Positions 37,351-51,787 of a stretch of DNA of 64,000 bases are shown here, one piece after another. The first letter of the stretch is position 1. Every line of letters begins with the position of its first letter. This DNA is from Elusimicrobiota bacterium. Lineage in GTDB: Bacteria; Elusimicrobiota; Elusimicrobia; UBA1565. The notes beneath the pieces were generated by a model, which saw only the letters and a list, made by a program, of their open reading frames with translations, was not told the DNA's origin and made no database searches. Location: contig JACPXC010000059.1 in NCBI GenBank assembly GCA_016196755.1, positions 186,001-250,000 of the forward strand, read 5' to 3'. The translations under genes and the position numbers were made by a program.

Positions 37351-38394
37351 CTAACGGTCTTTGACCAGTCCGCGGCTGCGCAAGGTCCAGGCCGCCAGGC
37401 GGTAGAGCAGGCGCATCCCCACGTTGGCGTCCCATTCGTCCTTGCCCCCGGGGGAGGGGGAGACCTCGACTAAGTCGAAGCCCAGGATCGTGCGGCCGGA
37501 GCGGGCCAGGAGCCCGAGAATGTGGTCGGCCTCGTCGAACTCGAGGCCGCCCGGCACGGGCGTACCGGTGCCCGGGCAGAGCTTGGGGTCGAGCCCGTCG
37601 ATGTCGAAGGTGACCCAGACCTTCTCGGGCAGGGCCGCCACGGCCTCGGCCGCGGCCTCGCCGAAGGGCTTCCCCGCGAAGCGCCGGCTGGAGAGCTCGC
37701 GGGCCGTGAACATCCGCGCCCGCGGCCCCAGACCCCGGACGTAGTCGTCCTCCTCGCGGCAGAAGTCCCGGATGCCGACCTGGACGATCTTCGAGATCTG
37801 CGGGATGTCGCGCAGGGCGTTGCGCATGATGGAGGCGTGCGACCAGAGGAAGCCCTCATAGGCCTCGCGGGTGTCGGAGTGGGCGTCGAAATGGAGCAGG
37901 CCGAAGGAGCCATGGCGCTCGGCGGCGGCCTGGAACGCGCCGTAGGGGACGGAATGGTCCCCGCCGACGACGCCGACGACCTTGCCGGCCGCCATCAGCC
38001 TGGCGCACTCGGACCGGACCCAGCCGTTGAGCTCGCCGCCCAGCTGGTTGGCCTCGGCCAGCGCCTTGCGCAGGGCGGGTGTATTCGCCTCCCCGCCGGC
38101 GCGGATGACCTTCTGGGCGGCCGCCTTGGCTTTATTGTTCCAGGCCCGGACCCGGGGGGACTCCGCGAGCATGTGGATGCCCGGGCGCCAGGGGTCCCCC
38201 ACCTGGGGGTCGAAGAGGTCGATCTGGGCGCTGGCCGCGAGGATGGCCGCGGGCCCGCGCGAAGTCCCGCCGCCGTAGGAGGTGGTGGCCTCCCAGGGCA
38301 CCGGCAGGAGGACCAGGGCGGCGTCGGCCTCCCCGTGGGGCAAGCCGAAGACGCCGTCCCCGCCGGCCGGGCCGTCCGGGTCGAAGTCCGTCAT
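37351..38394 (-). CDS. Agmatinase / ureohydrolase family enzyme
   Basis: A 347-residue arginase-fold protein with both manganese sites: GGDHS (His), FDAHSD (Asp, His, Asp) and FDIDGLDP (two Asp). N-terminal YGGGTSRGPAAILAAS is typical of agmatinases, and the segment between motifs is longer than usual. It splits a guanidino group to urea and an amine. Its ATG lies 7 bp after the stop of a deoxyhypusine-synthase-like gene, so the two are one unit. It may therefore act on agmatine or on a longer bis-guanidino polyamine, as discussed under findings. Confidence 0.88.
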   Translation of the reverse strand: MTDFDPDGPAGGDGVFGLPHGEADAALVLLPVPWEATTSYGGGTSRGPAAILAASAQIDLFDPQVGDPWRPGIHMLAESPRVRAWNNKAKAAAQKVIRAGGEANTPALRKALAEANQLGGELNGWVRSECARLMAAGKVVGVVGGDHSVPYGAFQAAAERHGSFGLLHFDAHSDTREAYEGFLWSHASIMRNALRDIPQISKIVQVGIRDFCREEDDYVRGLGPRARMFTARELSSRRFAGKPFGEAAAEAVAALPEKVWVTFDIDGLDPKLCPGTGTPVPGGLEFDEADHILGLLARSGRTILGFDLVEVSPSPGGKDEWDANVGMRLLYRLAAWTLRSRGLVKDR

Positions 38395-38401
38395 CGCCGG
38401 C

Positions 38402-39454
38402 TTACGCCAGAGCGTTCGGGATCTTGACCTTGTTGTCGTCGAGGAACGCCGACCACTTGTTGCCTTTGCGGGCCTTCCAGCTGCCCTTGTGGTAGGCGTA
38501 GGACGCCAGGAGCGGGAAGGACATCGTCGCCTCGGAGAACACCATCTGCTCCCAGACCACGTCGACCTTGCCCCACGAGCAGGCCTCGCGCAAAGTCGAG
38601 CCCGAGAGCGCCCCGTCGCGCTCGTCGGCCACGCTGATCTGCACGGCGTACTTGTGCATCTTGACGTCGAGGCCGATCATCTCGGCGCCGACGGTGATGT
38701 CCTGGGCGAAGTTCTTGGGGACGCCGCCGCCGATCATGAGGAGGCCGGTGTCCTTGGCCGCCAGCTTCACGCGCACCAGCTCGCGGAAGTCGCGGGCCGA
38801 GTCGATCATGACGTGGGACTCGGGGTTGTGCCACTGGTGGTGCAGGAGCCCGAAGCCCGCCGAGCAGTCCGAGAAGGCGGGGACGAAGATCGGGACCTTC
38901 TTCTTGAAGCACTCCAGCACGATCGAGTCGGTGACCTTGGCGTTCTTGACCAGGTACTTGCCCATCTCGTCGATGAACTGGCGCGAGGAGTAGGCGCGCG
39001 GCTCGAGCGAGCCGGCGATCTTGGAGATCGTGTTGTCGCACTTGCCGAGCTCGTCCTCGTCGATGAAGGTGTCGTAGATGCGGTCGACGCGCAGGTCGCG
39101 GAGCTGCTTGTCGTCGACCCACTTCGAGCCCAGGTAGTGCTTGAAGCCGAGGGCCTCGAAGAAGTCCTGGTCGATGATGTTGGCGCCGGTGGAGACGATG
39201 GCGTCGACCATGTTATGGCGCACCAAGTCGTAGACCACGCGCTTGAGGCCGGCCGAGATGAGCGAACCCGCCAGGCACAGGACGACCGAGCAGTCCTTGT
39301 CGGCCAGCATGCGGTCGTAGATGTCCGATGCCCGCGCCAAGTCCTTGGCCGAGAAGGCCATCTTCGAATAGGCCTGCATGAGGGGGACGGCATCGAACTC
39401 GGTGATGTCCAGGTGCTCGACGGTCTCTTTGAGAAGATCAGACTTCTTTGGCAT
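38402..39454 (-). CDS. Deoxyhypusine-synthase-like polyamine enzyme
   Basis: A 350-residue protein of the deoxyhypusine synthase superfamily. The NAD-site region IVSTGANIIDQDFFEALG and the block MIGGGVPKNFAQDI are clear. The active-site Lys is K296 in SWGKV, which forms an imine with the aminobutyl group in the family. Bacteria have no hypusine target, and bacterial homologues are known as homospermidine- or bis-guanidino-polyamine-forming enzymes. It stands beside an agmatinase-family gene, so a polyamine role is likely. A TGATATCAT promoter and GGAGG lie upstream. Confidence 0.85.
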   Translation of the reverse strand: MPKKSDLLKETVEHLDITEFDAVPLMQAYSKMAFSAKDLARASDIYDRMLADKDCSVVLCLAGSLISAGLKRVVYDLVRHNMVDAIVSTGANIIDQDFFEALGFKHYLGSKWVDDKQLRDLRVDRIYDTFIDEDELGKCDNTISKIAGSLEPRAYSSRQFIDEMGKYLVKNAKVTDSIVLECFKKKVPIFVPAFSDCSAGFGLLHHQWHNPESHVMIDSARDFRELVRVKLAAKDTGLLMIGGGVPKNFAQDITVGAEMIGLDVKMHKYAVQISVADERDGALSGSTLREACSWGKVDVVWEQMVFSEATMSFPLLASYAYHKGSWKARKGNKWSAFLDDNKVKIPNALA

Positions 39455-45765: not shown

Positions 45766-46638
45766 CTAGCTCAGGACGGCGCGCAGGGACGACCCGCGCC
45801 CCACGGCGCGCTCGGCCAAGGCCGGCAGCTCGAAAAACGGCAACGTCAGCAGCGCCGGCCAACCCACCCCGCCGGCGTTCGGCCCGCCGCCCGCGCGCAG
45901 GGCGTTCTGCAGGGAGAGCGACCACGACGAGGAGTCCGGCGTGGTGTCCACGGCCACCGACACGAAGCCCGCGCGCCGCGCCAGGGCCTCCAGCGCCGGC
46001 GGCGTGAAGACGTATAGGTGGCGCGGGGCGTGCAGGCCCGACCAATGCGCGCCGAAGACGGAACGGCCGACGGCGTCGGCGTTCGGCGTCCGGATGAAGA
46101 CCCGGCCGCCGGGGGCCAGGGCGCCCTTGAGCCGGGCCAGGAAGGCCCCGGGGTCGAGCAGGTGCTCCAAGACGTTGTTGGCGAGGACCCCGTCGTAGGG
46201 GCCGCCGAGCGGAGCCGACTCGAGGTCGCCGGCTGTAAAGGGGATCCCGTCGCGTTTTAGGAGCGGCGGCTCGTGCCAGTCAAAGCCCGCTATGTTCCGG
46301 TAGCCGAGCGCTTTGAGCCCGCGCAGGAGATGGCCGGCGCCGCAGCCGAGCTCGACGAGCCGGGTCCCGCGGTCGGGGAACTCCTTGGCGAGGTCCTTGG
46401 CCAGGCGGCGGCCCTGGATCCCCTTGAGCCGCGCGACGAAGCCCTCGGAGAGATACGGGCCGTAGTCGGCGGGGTAAAACGAGCGGACCGCCTCGGGGGT
46501 GGGGGCCGGGACCTGGGCCAGCGCCCGGCAGACGGGACACTCGGAAAAGTCGGCGCGCGCCTGTACGCCGTGCTCGAGGTCCGCTACTCCTTTATAGAGG
46601 GGGCGCAGCTCCGCCTTACGGCAGAGGGGGCATTCCAT
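45766..46638 (-). CDS. Class I SAM methyltransferase with N-terminal zinc ribbon
   Basis: A 290-residue protein. The N-terminus is MECPLCRK with a second FSECPVCRA (two CxxC), a zinc ribbon. The Rossmann core has VELGCGAGHLLRGLKALGY (SAM motif I), IAGFDWHEP and VLANNVLEHLLDPGAFLARL with GGRVFIRTPN. This architecture is common in methyltransferases near glycolipid or polyketide-like clusters. The ATG lies 23 bp inside the Rieske-oxygenase-like gene. It may act on the product of that oxygenase, which is inference. Confidence 0.88.
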   Translation of the reverse strand: MECPLCRKAELRPLYKGVADLEHGVQARADFSECPVCRALAQVPAPTPEAVRSFYPADYGPYLSEGFVARLKGIQGRRLAKDLAKEFPDRGTRLVELGCGAGHLLRGLKALGYRNIAGFDWHEPPLLKRDGIPFTAGDLESAPLGGPYDGVLANNVLEHLLDPGAFLARLKGALAPGGRVFIRTPNADAVGRSVFGAHWSGLHAPRHLYVFTPPALEALARRAGFVSVAVDTTPDSSSWSLSLQNALRAGGGPNAGGVGWPALLTLPFFELPALAERAVGRGSSLRAVLS

Positions 46639-47263
46639 AACCGACTTCGACACTCTCACCGAAGGGGCGCTCGTAGCCCTCGCGGCATACGCTGGTCGAC
46701 TTGGGCACCGGCAGTTCGATGGGATAGGGCCGCTCGGCGGGAAGGCCGGCGGGCTTCGGGGTCTTGTCGTTGATAAAGCCGATGCCCTCGAAGTTCTTGA
46801 AGCCCAGCTTCCAGACCTTGAGGCGCCGCAGGCGCATCGGCACGTCCTCGTCCCAGGTGGCATAGAACCACTTGCGGGTCATCTCGTAGAAGAAGGGCTG
46901 GAGGAGGCCCAGGGGCCACGGCACCTCCATCCGGCTCTCCAGCGTGACCAGGCATTTCTCGCCCGGCAGGTCGCGGAAGGTGTACTCCTGCACCAGGGTG
47001 GCGAGCTTGCCGATGTGGATCGACTTCATCGTGTGGGGCGAGGTCAGGTGCGAGAAGTTCTTCGAGACCACCATGAAGGGGATGTAGGAGATGTTGAAGT
47101 GCCGCTCCGCGAAGCACCAGTTGTCCTTCTCGTCGTAGACGCGGATCTTCTTGTAGCTCTTGTAGTGCGTGCCGACCACGTGCTCGTGGTCGAAGTAGTT
47201 CCAGATGACGATCTCGCGCGGGCACTCCATCTCCTGCTCGATCTTGGAATGGAGGGTGGCCAT
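46616..47263 (-). CDS. Stand-alone catalytic domain of a Rieske oxygenase (split form)
   Basis: A 215-residue protein without a Rieske cluster. It carries WNYFDHEHVVGTHYKSY near residues 21-37. This has the D-x2-H-x4-H (D25, H28, H33) arrangement of Rieske non-haem oxygenases, where the two His bind the mononuclear iron and the Asp lies between subunits. A later ATWDEDVPM offers an Asp for the third ligand. The fold is of the SRPBCC (START-like) type. The Rieske protein is encoded separately 10 bp upstream, and a methyltransferase overlaps it downstream. The pair would be a two-gene oxygenase. Substrate unknown. Confidence 0.72.
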   Translation of the reverse strand: MATLHSKIEQEMECPREIVIWNYFDHEHVVGTHYKSYKKIRVYDEKDNWCFAERHFNISYIPFMVVSKNFSHLTSPHTMKSIHIGKLATLVQEYTFRDLPGEKCLVTLESRMEVPWPLGLLQPFFYEMTRKWFYATWDEDVPMRLRRLKVWKLGFKNFEGIGFINDKTPKPAGLPAERPYPIELPVPKSTSVCREGYERPFGESVEVGYGMPPLP

Positions 47264-47273
47264 GGGTTCGGTC

Positions 47274-47594
47274 CTAGGCGGACGCGCGCTCGACGAGTTG
47301 GACCATGATCGCGTCGCCCTCGACCTTGATAGTGTACTCGCGCAGCGAAAGTCCGCCAGGGCTGAGGCAGGCGCCGTCCTTGGCCGAGAACTTGAAGTTG
47401 TGCCACAGGCAGGTGAAGCAGCCGTCCTTCATCTTGTGGTAGCCCACCGGCCCGCCGAAATGGGTGCAGATGTTGCTCAGGGCCCTGATCTTCCCGTCGA
47501 GGCGGTACACGAGGACGTCGTGGTCGTCGAGCCAGCGCGAGAACTGGCCGTGGGGCTCGAGGTCGCTAAGAACCCCGATTTTCTTGAATTCCAT
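47274..47594 (-). CDS. Small Rieske [2Fe-2S] protein
   Basis: A 106-residue protein with the Rieske motifs CTHFGG (C-x-H) and CLWHNF (C-x2-H), which bind the cluster, separated by about 16 residues. It has no catalytic domain. I chose the ATG at 47594, 29 bp inside the glycosyltransferase gene. The separate SRPBCC protein follows after 10 bp. It could be the electron donor of that protein or its covalent-partner replacement. Confidence 0.92.
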   Translation of the reverse strand: MEFKKIGVLSDLEPHGQFSRWLDDHDVLVYRLDGKIRALSNICTHFGGPVGYHKMKDGCFTCLWHNFKFSAKDGACLSPGGLSLREYTIKVEGDAIMVQLVERASA

Positions 47595-48897
47595 CCTTCT
47601 CGATTGTATCAAAACGCCGCGCGGCAACCGCCGCCGCGGCCCCGACGGCCAAGAGCGGCACGCAGGGGATGCGGTAGCGATAGTAGCCCTGCGAGCTCGA
47701 GAAGGCCAGGAAGTAGCCCAGGATCAGGCCGAGGAAGGCGGCCTCGGCGCGGCGCCGCTCTCGCCAGAACCTGAGCAGCCCCGCCGCGCAGAGGAGGTAG
47801 AGGGCGGCCAAAGCGGCCATGTAACCCAGCTGCAGGGGGATGAGCCACGGGTAGCGGCGCAGCAGGGCCACCGTCCCGCGCCCCGAGGCCTTGACCCGGT
47901 ACTCCGCGTCGATGCCCTCGGGCCGGCCGGCCCACTGCGGCAGCATCTCCAGGCCGGTGCCGGCCAGGGTCTTGAGCAGGCCCCAGGAACAGTAGCGCAC
48001 GAGCAGGAACGGATGGGCGCCGATGACGCGGGCGCCGACCCGGCCGTAGACCTGGCTGCGCTCGGCATCGCTAGCGTAGCCCCCGGGATGCTCGGCGTCG
48101 GCGACGGCCTGGAGCTCGAGGTCGCGTTCCTTGACCGTACCGCCCAGGCGCAGAGACTCGATCCCCGCGGCCATGTAGCTCAGCATCGCCACGCCGCCCA
48201 CCCCCGAGAACGCCGACACGCCGGTCGCCCTAAAATTACGTGCCATCCAGGCCCCGGGCAGGAGGTAGGCCGCGAGCAGGAAACAGGCCGCCGCCTTGCG
48301 GTCGCGCCGCCAGACCCAGACCAGGGCCACGGGCAGATGGAAGCTCAGCGGGCGGACCAGAGCGCCGACGCCCCAGAGCAGGCCGCAGAGCGCCGCGCCC
48401 TTGAGGCCGGGCCGCTCGATCTGGTCCCAGGTGCGGACGAAAGCCGCGACGACCAAGAAGACGAACACGGTCTCGCTGAGGAGCATGGGGGTGTGGAATA
48501 TGGTCACGAGGTCCAGCGCCACGGCCAAGGCGCCCACAGCCGCGGCCAGTCGCCCCCAACGGGGCTCGAGCCAGCGCCACAACAGGACCGCCGTCGCCGC
48601 TCCGATCAGGCACTGCGCCAAGGCGGCCGGCAGTACCGGCGCGTCAAAGAGCGCCACGAAAGGCGCCAGGAAGAGCGGATAGCCGGGAGTGCGGAACGTG
48701 TTGGGCACAAACGGCTCCGGCCCGGTCGAGAAGACGCCGTGGTCCAGCATGTTGCCGGCCAGCGCCAGATAGCCCACGCCGTCGATGGGGACGAAGCGCG
48801 CGGGGTCGCCCGCGGCCAGAAGCCAGAGCCCCAGGCGCGGGGCCAGCGCCGCGGCCCAGAGCCACCAGGGAGCGCCCAAAAGCATCCCTTTGCGCAT
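47566..48897 (-). CDS. GT39/GT83-like membrane glycosyltransferase
   Basis: A 443-residue membrane protein of the dolichyl-phosphate-mannose-protein mannosyltransferase type. An early outer loop has IDGVGYLALAGNMLDHGVFS with an acidic pair, and a further loop with NTFRTPGYPLFLAPF. About ten helices follow. The family moves sugars from lipid carriers to lipids or proteins on the outside. The ATG at 48897 has TAGGCT 5 bp upstream. It is divergent from the GT2 gene, whose product could make the lipid-linked sugar. Confidence 0.85.
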   Translation of the reverse strand: MRKGMLLGAPWWLWAAALAPRLGLWLLAAGDPARFVPIDGVGYLALAGNMLDHGVFSTGPEPFVPNTFRTPGYPLFLAPFVALFDAPVLPAALAQCLIGAATAVLLWRWLEPRWGRLAAAVGALAVALDLVTIFHTPMLLSETVFVFLVVAAFVRTWDQIERPGLKGAALCGLLWGVGALVRPLSFHLPVALVWVWRRDRKAAACFLLAAYLLPGAWMARNFRATGVSAFSGVGGVAMLSYMAAGIESLRLGGTVKERDLELQAVADAEHPGGYASDAERSQVYGRVGARVIGAHPFLLVRYCSWGLLKTLAGTGLEMLPQWAGRPEGIDAEYRVKASGRGTVALLRRYPWLIPLQLGYMAALAALYLLCAAGLLRFWRERRRAEAAFLGLILGYFLAFSSSQGYYRYRIPCVPLLAVGAAAAVAARRFDTIEKDGIQENRGS

Positions 48898-48939: not shown

Positions 48940-49824
48940 ATGGCGCTCAGCGTGACGGCGGTCCTTCCGGCGTACAACGAGGAAGGCGCGGTGGCCAAGG
49001 TGGCCGCGGCGGTGAAGGCCGCCCTGGCCGGCGCCGGGCTCGAGGCCTACGAGGTCCTCGTAGTCGACGACGGCTCGAGCGACGGCACCGCCGCCGCCGC
49101 CGAGGCCGCGGGGGCGCGCGTCGTGCGCCACCCCGTCAACAGCGGCTACGGCCGGGCGCTCCTGACGGGCGCCTCCGAGGCCAAGCATCCCTGGCTCCTT
49201 TACCTCGACGCCGACGGTTCCTATCGGGCCGAAGACGCGGTGCGTCTCCTGGCCGACGCTCCGGCCTGCGACATGGTGGTCGGCGCCCGGCAGGGAAGCC
49301 TGTTCTGGGGCAACCCGGGCAAGGCCTTCCTGCGCTTTCTCCAACTCAAGCTCTCGGCCTTCGTCGCGGGGATGCCGATCCCCGACACCAACTCCGGCCT
49401 GCGCCTGGTGCGCAAGGCCGCCCTCGAGCACAACCTGCCGGTACGCTGCTACGGCTTCTCGCTTTCGACGACGATGACGCTGTCCTTCATCCAGCAGCGC
49501 CTGTTCGTGAAGTTCGTCCCCGTGGCCTACGACCCGCGCAAGGGCAAGTCCAAGGTGAAGCTCCTGCGCGACTCGCTGAGGACCCTCCAGCTCATGCTCG
49601 AGATCATCCTCTTCTTTAACCCGCTCAAGTTCGCGGTCACGGTCGCCGGACTGCTCCTGCTCTTAGCCGCCGCCCTGGCGGCCTCCTCGTCGTGCTCGGG
49701 CTCGGCGCTCCAGGCGCTGAGCGCCGTGCTGGCCGCCTTCGCGGCCCTGCCCGTGCTGATCGCCGGCTGCGTGCTCGACGCCCTGCGCCTGCACGGGCAG
49801 GCCGACCGGCACTGGAAGATATAA
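48940..49824 (+). CDS. GT2-family polyprenyl-sugar glycosyltransferase
   Basis: A 294-residue protein. The GT-A fold shows VLPAYNEEG at the N-terminus, VLVVDDGSSDGT (donor site) and LLYLDADGSY (DxD metal motif). Two membrane helices at the C-terminus (about 227-250 and 258-283) suggest a dolichyl/polyprenyl-phosphate sugar synthase. The product lipid could feed the divergent GT39-like protein. The ATG is 6 bp after TATCCT. It is convergent with speA at a 7-bp gap. Confidence 0.9.
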   Translation: MALSVTAVLPAYNEEGAVAKVAAAVKAALAGAGLEAYEVLVVDDGSSDGTAAAAEAAGARVVRHPVNSGYGRALLTGASEAKHPWLLYLDADGSYRAEDAVRLLADAPACDMVVGARQGSLFWGNPGKAFLRFLQLKLSAFVAGMPIPDTNSGLRLVRKAALEHNLPVRCYGFSLSTTMTLSFIQQRLFVKFVPVAYDPRKGKSKVKLLRDSLRTLQLMLEIILFFNPLKFAVTVAGLLLLLAAALAASSSCSGSALQALSAVLAAFAALPVLIAGCVLDALRLHGQADRHWKI

Positions 49825-49831
49825 GGGAAGG

Positions 49832-51787
49832 CTACGTCAGGGGGACGGTGTCCGACTCGGCGGGCGCCGTCAGACCGACGGCCGCGCGCGGCCCGTGGTC
49901 GATGTACGTGTACTGCCGCAGCACCGCCTCGTAGTAGTCGAGGAGCTCGACGCCTTCGCGCGGCTTCAAAGCACCGGCTCGGACCTGGGTGTCCAGCGCA
50001 GTCTTGACCATCTTCACGAGCTCGTATTCGCTGTACTGCGTGTCGTCTAGGACGTCGCGCACGGTCTGGCCGCGGATGACTTCCTCGACATAGTAGCCCG
50101 ACGGCTCCTGGTCGTCCTCGAAAACGTGGACCTCGTTGACGCGGCCGAAGAGGTTGTGGATGTCGCCCATCGTGGCCTGGTAGGCACCCATGAGGAAGAT
50201 GCCGAGGTAGTAGGGCTCGCCGTTGAGCGGGTGCACGGGCAGGGTGTCGCGCGGCCGGTCCCCGCAGACGTACTGGTCGACCTTGCCGTCGGAGTCGCAG
50301 GTGATGTCGACGAGGCCGGCCTCGCGGCTGGGCTCTTCGTCTAGCCGGTGCAGGGGGACGATCGGGAACATATGGTTGATCGCCCAGCTGTCGGGCAGCG
50401 ACTGGAACAGCGAGAAGTTGACGAGGTACTGGTCGTGCAGGGTCCGCGTCATGCGCTGGACGTCCTCGGGGACGCTCTCGGCCTGGGGCAGGAGCTTGCG
50501 AATCTCGAGGCAGAGGCGCCAGAACAGGGTCTCGGCCTTGGCCTTCTCCTCCAGGTCGATGTAGCCCAAGCGGAAGAGCGAGTTGGCCTCTTCGAGCCAG
50601 CGCAGGCCGTCGTGGTAGCTCTCGCCGATCCCCTCGAGGGTCAGGTCCTTGAGGGCGTCGCGGATCTCGCGCACGACGACGTGGTCGTCGGGCGTCTCGT
50701 CGACCGGGATGACGGAGGCGCCGGTCTCGATGGAGCCGAAGATGTTGACGACCAGCATCGCGTGGTGGGCCGTCGTGGAGCGGCCCGACTCGGTGACGAT
50801 GTTGGGCTCGGGGACCTTCTCCTGGGCGCAGACGGTCTGGATCGAGTAGACCAGGCCGCGCGCGTACTCGTCGAGCGTGTAGTTGATCGAGTGGTCGTTG
50901 GAGGTCTTGGTGCCGTCGTAATCGACGCCGAGGCCGCCGCCGCAGTCGAGGTACTCGAGCGGCACGCCCATCTTGCGCATCTTGGCGTAGATGCGGGTGG
51001 CTTCCTTGACCCCGTCCTGGATGGCCTGGATCTCGGTGATCTGGGAGCCGATGTGGAAGTGGAGCATCTTGAGGTGCTCGATGGCGCCCTCGGCCTTGAG
51101 GGTGCGCACCGCGGCCACGAGCTCGGGCGTCGACAGCCCGAACTTGGCGGCGTGCCCGCCGGAGGTCTTCCACTTGCCCGAGCCCTCGGTGGAGAGCTTG
51201 GCGCGCAGGCCGATGAGGGGCTGGACGCCGGTCTCGCGGGCCGCGCGCAGCAGGAGGTCGAGCTCGCCGGGCTTTTCGATGACGACGACGACCTGCTTGC
51301 CCAGCTTGACGCCCAGGCAGGAGAGGCGCATCATCTCCTCGTCCTTGTAGCCGTTGACGATGGTGAGGCCGTCGGCGCGGTTCATCGCGAGGACGGCCAT
51401 CAACTCCGGCTTCGAGCCCGCTTCCAGGCCCATGCGGTAGGGCTTGCCGGCCTCGAGCACTTCCTCGACGACCTCGCGCAGCTGGTTGACCTTGATCGGG
51501 AAGACGCCCTGGTACTTGCCCTGGTAGTTGTGCTCCTCGATCGCGCGCCGGAAGGTGCGGTTGAGGAGGTTCACCCGGTCGTGGAGGATGTCCTGGAAGC
51601 GGATGAGGACCGGGAGCTTGATGCCTCGCGCGGCCACGTCGTCTACGACGGCCTTGATGTCGATGATCTGGCGGGCGCTGCGCTTGGGCTGGTAGATGAG
51701 GTGGCCGTTGTCGGCCACCGCGAAGTAGTTCTGTCCCCAACCCTTGATATTGTAGAGCTTCGCGGCGTCTTTGACCGACCAAGTCAT
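49832..51787 (-). CDS. speA: Biosynthetic arginine decarboxylase
   Basis: A 651-residue protein of normal SpeA length. The PLP-binding Lys is K99 in GVFPIKVNQ. The long fold-III barrel and C-terminal domain follow, with YLDCGGGLGVDYDGT and TESGRSTTAHHA typical of SpeA. It converts arginine to agmatine, the first step of the polyamine route suggested by the DHS-like and agmatinase-like genes 10 kb away. It has TTGAAT-17-GATAAT upstream and the ATG 8 bp after the -10. Confidence 0.96.
   Translation of the reverse strand: MTWSVKDAAKLYNIKGWGQNYFAVADNGHLIYQPKRSARQIIDIKAVVDDVAARGIKLPVLIRFQDILHDRVNLLNRTFRRAIEEHNYQGKYQGVFPIKVNQLREVVEEVLEAGKPYRMGLEAGSKPELMAVLAMNRADGLTIVNGYKDEEMMRLSCLGVKLGKQVVVVIEKPGELDLLLRAARETGVQPLIGLRAKLSTEGSGKWKTSGGHAAKFGLSTPELVAAVRTLKAEGAIEHLKMLHFHIGSQITEIQAIQDGVKEATRIYAKMRKMGVPLEYLDCGGGLGVDYDGTKTSNDHSINYTLDEYARGLVYSIQTVCAQEKVPEPNIVTESGRSTTAHHAMLVVNIFGSIETGASVIPVDETPDDHVVVREIRDALKDLTLEGIGESYHDGLRWLEEANSLFRLGYIDLEEKAKAETLFWRLCLEIRKLLPQAESVPEDVQRMTRTLHDQYLVNFSLFQSLPDSWAINHMFPIVPLHRLDEEPSREAGLVDITCDSDGKVDQYVCGDRPRDTLPVHPLNGEPYYLGIFLMGAYQATMGDIHNLFGRVNEVHVFEDDQEPSGYYVEEVIRGQTVRDVLDDTQYSEYELVKMVKTALDTQVRAGALKPREGVELLDYYEAVLRQYTYIDHGPRAAVGLTAPAESDTVPLT

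Follow-up and report, generated by a model that had tools for sequence, protein, structure and literature searches.

We found that two adjacent genes on the minus strand of the window, the 64,000-nucleotide stretch of DNA analysed here, probably encode a Rieske non-haem iron oxygenase whose two halves are separate proteins: a standalone Rieske [2Fe-2S] protein of 106 residues (P0002), the presumed electron-transfer half, and an SRPBCC-fold protein of 215 residues (P0001), the presumed catalytic half. The original prediction of a split Rieske non-haem oxygenase at this position is supported by the conservation of the pair, by its iron-site residues and by the existence of fused relatives. We assign a probability of about 0.82 to the reading that P0001 and P0002 form a two-chain enzyme, the substrate of which is probably a polyprenoid or surface glycolipid that is methylated in the next step. 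Our computations established that the two genes are real, that they are conserved as a pair, that the iron-site residues are invariant and that both halves are homologous to single-chain Rieske proteins with the domains in either order. From these results we infer iron binding, complex formation, oxygenase activity and the nature of the substrate.

The Rieske gene (47274..47594, minus strand) runs from an ATG at 47594 to a stop at 47274, and the catalytic gene (46616..47263, minus strand) from an ATG at 47263 to a stop at 46616. As had been described, the two proteins are encoded separately with 10 bp between their genes. The reading frames differ, and both genes bear a strong coding signal (third-position GC of 0.91 for the Rieske gene and 0.93 for the SRPBCC gene). 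A search for a consensus promoter found none. Rieske non-haem oxygenases carry the two domains on a single alpha-subunit chain, and because two genes take its place here and in five other genomes, we describe P0001 and P0002 as a variant and not as a classical alpha subunit. The catalytic half had been thought shorter than usual, but its SRPBCC core of about 155 residues is complete. When the two chains are added together, about 88 residues separate the first Rieske cysteine from the predicted catalytic aspartate (D25), compared with 91–93 in the single-chain Rieske–DUF5914 proteins described below; to judge by this spacing, it is as if the break fell within the inter-domain linker.

P0002 matched the Pfam Rieske domain (PF00355) with an E value of 2.3e-13 and 50.3 bits (cut-off 20.3). 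It contains the cluster motif C43-x-H45-x16-C62-x2-H65 (C43-T-H45 and C62-L-W-H65), which is the C-x-H ... C-x2-H pattern of Rieske [2Fe-2S] domains, and as a small standalone protein of 106 residues it also has the form of a Rieske-type ferredoxin. Its nearest solved structures were Rieske ferredoxins and cytochrome b6f Rieske subunits, and comparison with the toluene 4-monooxygenase protein T4moC gave an E value of 1.7e-4. When Rieske domains were placed on a small tree, those of the split pairs sat nearer to ferredoxins than to the domains of oxygenases, with weak support. Given this placement, the two-chain pair could equally have arisen through recruitment of a ferredoxin or through a gene that split in two. 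Because P0002 is ferredoxin-like and unlike the Rieske domains of oxygenases, it might serve another partner; we consider P0001 to be its probable partner. Elsewhere in the window's own genome (G000), contig C6 encodes a group of four Rieske proteins, each a single chain, in a stretch of 24 kb (L034, L047, L027 and L041; C6:43877-67715). Some of these lack the canonical late aspartate in the alignment, and the group is possibly part of a natural-product or lipid cluster.

P0001 contains the motif N22-x2-D25-x2-H28-x4-H33 (47165..47200, minus strand; N22-Y-F-D25-H-E-H28-V-V-G-T-H33), in which sequence and conservation point to D25 as the bridging aspartate and to H28 and H33 as iron ligands. 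The predicted third ligand is D140 (46844..46846, minus strand) in the C-terminal helix, which was invariant in 17 of 17 aligned sequences and which hhalign placed opposite the (Q/E)D of canonical Rieske oxygenases. D25, H28, H33 and a later aspartate had been named beforehand; all are present, the later aspartate being D140, and the motif extends upstream to N22. Taken as residues only, these constitute the 2-His-1-carboxylate set (D-x2-H-x4-H plus an aspartate in the C-terminal helix). The mononuclear-iron residues of naphthalene dioxygenase are D205, H208, H213 and D362, and we take the near-invariant columns of P0001 to be those that, in Rieske oxygenases, ligate the mononuclear iron or support its function.

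All seven family members compared, the most distant at 20% identity, have N22, D25, H28, H33 and D140. When 17 sequences spanning three architectures (split, swapped and canonical order) were aligned, only seven columns were kept in at least 16 sequences, namely these five together with R146 and R147. The prediction also held up when relatives were examined for loss of the four iron-site residues, as 16 of the 17 aligned sequences keep them all. The exception, L007 (19% identity), retains the first aspartate, the first histidine and the late aspartate and has asparagine in place of the second histidine; because of this substitution, it may be inactive or may use another ligand. The L007 pair (L007/L015, contig C87 of G280) adjoins genes for a cupin and a thiamine-diphosphate enzyme, and a changed metal site is possible there. 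Among 100,000 shuffles of P0001, D..H....H arose in 0.7% and N..D..H....H in 0.02%, and the latter pattern occurred in no frame other than that of P0001 among the 317 stop-free frames of at least 100 residues in the window. Conservation and the shuffles together led us to reject a chance motif; it is the conservation, more than the odds of the motif, that is real evidence for the predicted iron-site set.

As a canonical reference, we used 15 Rieske oxygenase catalytic domains from the genomes searched. The joined family aligned with these domains by hhalign at an E value of 2.5e-5, with the N, D, H and H in register. For the unjoined family the score was 21.6 (E = 0.02), a weak match when taken by itself; none of the 200 column-shuffled controls reached this score (mean 10.8, s.d. 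1.8, maximum 17.3). The end alignment produced by hhalign in global mode was meaningless and was excluded from the results.

P0001 had no match in a Pfam hmmscan at E ≤ 1, curated catalytic domains such as Ring_hydroxyl_A, VanA_C, PaO and DUF5914 included, and it is linked to DUF5914 and to the canonical domains through its family profile only. Searches of PDB sequences with the single sequence and with the profile gave no result for the catalytic half. An AlphaFold2 model built from three sequences was of modest confidence (pLDDT 59, pTM 0.60), and a second model from a trimmed alignment was worse (pLDDT 58.6). The model has the SRPBCC (helix-grip) fold, with a strand, a helix, six strands and a long helix. 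At this modest confidence, the model places the D25–H33 segment after the first helix and D140 within the final one, an arrangement shared with Rieske oxygenases; residues 27–33 at the iron site have a pLDDT below 50, too low to judge the geometry of the pocket. Foldseek returned 271 PDB matches at E ≤ 0.001 with SRPBCC proteins on top. These included the Rieske oxygenases SxtT (7.4e-6) and GxtA, with E values of about 1e-5, and the best matches were non-enzymatic or aromatase/cyclase SRPBCC proteins. VIA-align likewise placed carriers and aromatase/cyclases on top (Z of 13–14), with no Rieske oxygenase among the 50 matches listed, and a search of a viral fold library with the model found START-like proteins. 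The fold agrees with the START/polyketide-cyclase carrier class, whereas the conserved ligand set speaks against it.

Adjacent Rieske and SRPBCC genes, with the Rieske gene first, were present in six genomes: that of the window, two Myxococcota, two Alphaproteobacteria and one more member of the window's class. The close relatives L004 and L005 came from a scan in which each species was represented by one genome, and further genome searches found L011, L010 and L007. In all five loci the Rieske gene lies directly upstream of the gene for the catalytic half, which is 53% identical to P0001 in a Labilithrix MAG (L004), 48% in an alphaproteobacterial MAG (L005), 52% in G682, a genome of the same class as that of L005 (L011), 24% in G618, of the same phylum as that of L004 (L010), and 19% in G280, of the window's class (L007). 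The intergenic distances in the close pairs, the window included, are 10, 0, 6 and −4 bp. The catalytic-half family is rare in the window's class, where its profile matched 3 of 235 genomes, the window's own counted. This rarity and the occurrence of members about 50% identical in distant phyla suggest that the family has spread laterally. No result was obtained for the catalytic half by tblastn in plasmids and phages, by a profile scan of viral contigs or in a PHROGs search.

Fused homologues, which the original prediction had named as a check, were recovered by sequence profile in both domain orders. Three unnamed single-chain proteins (L003/G240, L018/G964 and L066/G1053) have a homologous catalytic half with the iron-site residues and the reversed order, catalytic then Rieske. 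Two of these three, L003 and L018, are chains of 306–307 residues from genomes of the window's own order, and their Pfam Rieske matches at residues 226–265 and 230–273, respectively, confirm the swap. L018 adjoins a family-2 glycosyltransferase (GT2) gene. A B12-binding radical SAM gene directly follows and overlaps L003 (L003/L014, contig C78 of G240), and a second such gene lies nearby.

A profile built from seven members of the catalytic family (A5) retrieved, in the class of G295, twelve Rieske-first proteins from twelve genomes (L054–L065; best E value 5.7e-9) as well as the swapped L066 (E = 7e-4), whose catalytic half gave weak Pfam scores to VanA_C and Polyketide_cyc2. In L054–L065 the motif reads NRLDPWHGxxxH and the end motif L-W-x-E-D, and all three that were scanned against Pfam (L054, L062 and L065) matched Rieske plus DUF5914. 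Comparison of the window's family with the Rieske–DUF5914 catalytic domain by hhalign gave an E value of 1.7e-13; P0001 alone had no match to DUF5914 (PF19299) and is homologous to it by profile. Among single-chain proteins with the canonical order, the Rieske–DUF5914 proteins are the nearest homologues of the catalytic half, with identical iron-site residues and, like P0001, a W-x-E-D end motif, after which most have Arg-Arg. They differ from the pair in being one chain and in their neighbours, with lycopene cyclase in the two loci opened. These cyclase genes lie close to Rieske–DUF5914 genes at L067 and L068 (two genomes, class of G295), which suggests that DUF5914 is a carotenoid-modifying oxygenase domain; we found no mention of DUF5914 in the open-access literature searched.

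In the mechanism that we propose, P0001 would bind one Fe(II) through H28, H33 and D140, and P0002 would dock on P0001 and deliver electrons from its [2Fe-2S] cluster to the iron through the bridging D25, the retention of which would fit a Rieske protein that docks where it does in other Rieske oxygenases. Activated O2 would then be used for the hydroxylation, or else the desaturation or dealkylation, of a hydrophobic substrate bound in the cavity of the SRPBCC fold, and the product would be methylated; from the neighbouring genes, this substrate may be a polyprenoid or a glycolipid, the latter either linked to polyprenyl phosphate or at the surface. The cluster of known Rieske oxygenases feeds the iron of the neighbouring subunit about 12 Å away, and electrons cross between subunits because the distance within a subunit is about 45 Å (PMC12445004). 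Since single-chain enzymes already transfer electrons between neighbouring subunits, separate chains require no new chemistry.

Other explanations account for parts of these data. P0001 could be a non-catalytic lipid or substrate carrier of the START/polyketide-cyclase type and P0002 a ferredoxin for some other oxygenase, as carriers and aromatase/cyclases head the fold matches, P0002 is ferredoxin-like and the window's genome has several single-chain Rieske proteins elsewhere. We consider this improbable in view of the invariant N-x2-D-x2-H-x4-H and late aspartate at the iron-site positions of Rieske oxygenases, the fused relatives in both orders and the adjacency of the pair across phyla, with no third oxygenase gene seen to be common to the loci. 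That the split is an artefact or decay, in which a frameshift or stop broke a single-chain gene, can be given almost no credence: the same split recurs in six independent genomes, the two genes start separately, the distance between them varies and their coding signal is strong, even though total length and domain order match those of single-chain Rieske–DUF5914 relatives. The same adjacent pair in five other genomes indicates that the split is not a frameshift, and the six conserved split loci refute an artefact.

The pair could also be a split Rieske-type iron enzyme that catalyses a reaction other than oxygen insertion, such as desaturation, oxidative cyclisation or dealkylation. Many such reactions are catalysed by Rieske oxygenases (PMC12445004), and the methyltransferase neighbour leaves the chemistry unfixed. 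We found no specific evidence against such an enzyme, which differs from the two-chain oxygenase in its product only, and we think it unlikely to be the correct description. Counting against the two-chain oxygenase itself are the lack of a curated oxygenase family for P0001, the weak direct profile match to canonical oxygenases, the modest confidence of the model and its best structural matches to non-enzymatic or aromatase/cyclase proteins, the ferredoxin-like character of P0002 and the asparagine of L007.

The reported overlap of the pair with genes on both sides was borne out. A SAM-dependent methyltransferase gene with N-terminal CxxC pairs (45766..46638, minus strand; Methyltransf_23, E = 1.6e-24) shares 23 bp with the catalytic gene, and a gene for a multi-pass GT-C-type glycosyltransferase-like protein (47566..48897, minus strand; PMT_2, E = 1.3e-6) overlaps the Rieske gene at its start by 29 bp. 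Divergent from these is a gene for a family-2 glycosyltransferase with C-terminal hydrophobic segments, of the dolichol/undecaprenyl-phosphate type (48940..49824, plus strand; Glycos_transf_2, E = 2.9e-23). The window's methyltransferase was 39.5–39.8% identical over nearly its full length to the products of the same-position genes in L004 and L011; the three are 35–40% identical to one another, and all their genes overlap the catalytic gene. The Methyltransf_23 gene of L005 is on the other side of the pair. Besides the window, L004, L010, L011 and L018 have GT2 genes near the pair or fusion; GT-C-like membrane proteins are encoded nearby both in the window (PMT_2) and at L010 (GT87). These neighbourhoods make a surface lipid or glycan a plausible substrate. 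The simplest guess, which we rate somewhat below an even chance, is oxidation followed by O-methylation of a lipid (acyl or polyprenyl) or of a lipid-linked sugar. More tentatively, and with slightly less expectation of being right, the pair may represent a distinct branch of the Rieske oxygenases that is rare, has spread laterally and comes as two chains or fused in either order; in a cassette with a dedicated methyltransferase and prenyl-phosphate glycosyltransferases, it would oxidise and methylate an undescribed polyprenyl-linked surface glycolipid.

With Rieske non-haem oxygenases such as naphthalene dioxygenase, dicamba monooxygenase DdmC and SxtT/GxtA, the pair shares the Rieske motif, the SRPBCC fold, N-x2-D-x2-H-x4-H and the late (Q/E)D, in the same order. 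It differs from them in having two chains and a ferredoxin-type Rieske partner, and the core of P0001 lacks any known Pfam oxygenase domain. In toluene 4-monooxygenase, T4moC is a standalone Rieske protein that donates electrons directly to non-haem iron on another chain, as proposed for P0002; its partner T4moH is a di-iron carboxylate enzyme, whereas P0001 is predicted to be an SRPBCC mono-iron enzyme. A search of the open-access literature found no split or two-chain Rieske oxygenase, and the electron-delivering and oxygen-activating domains of the Rieske oxygenases described there were always on one chain, which makes docking, electron gating and cluster potential hard to study separately. 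Where such an enzyme occurs naturally as two chains and has single-chain relatives in either order, each half can be made, mixed, titrated and swapped, and such a split could reveal how electrons pass between parts of an enzyme. The residue signature also allows an unnamed protein family to be annotated as a probable iron oxygenase.

Judged from their translations only, agmatinase-like and deoxyhypusine-synthase-like genes (37351-39454) and a biosynthetic arginine-decarboxylase-like gene (49832-51787) flank the cassette on its two sides, forming a scattered set of polyamine genes in the window.
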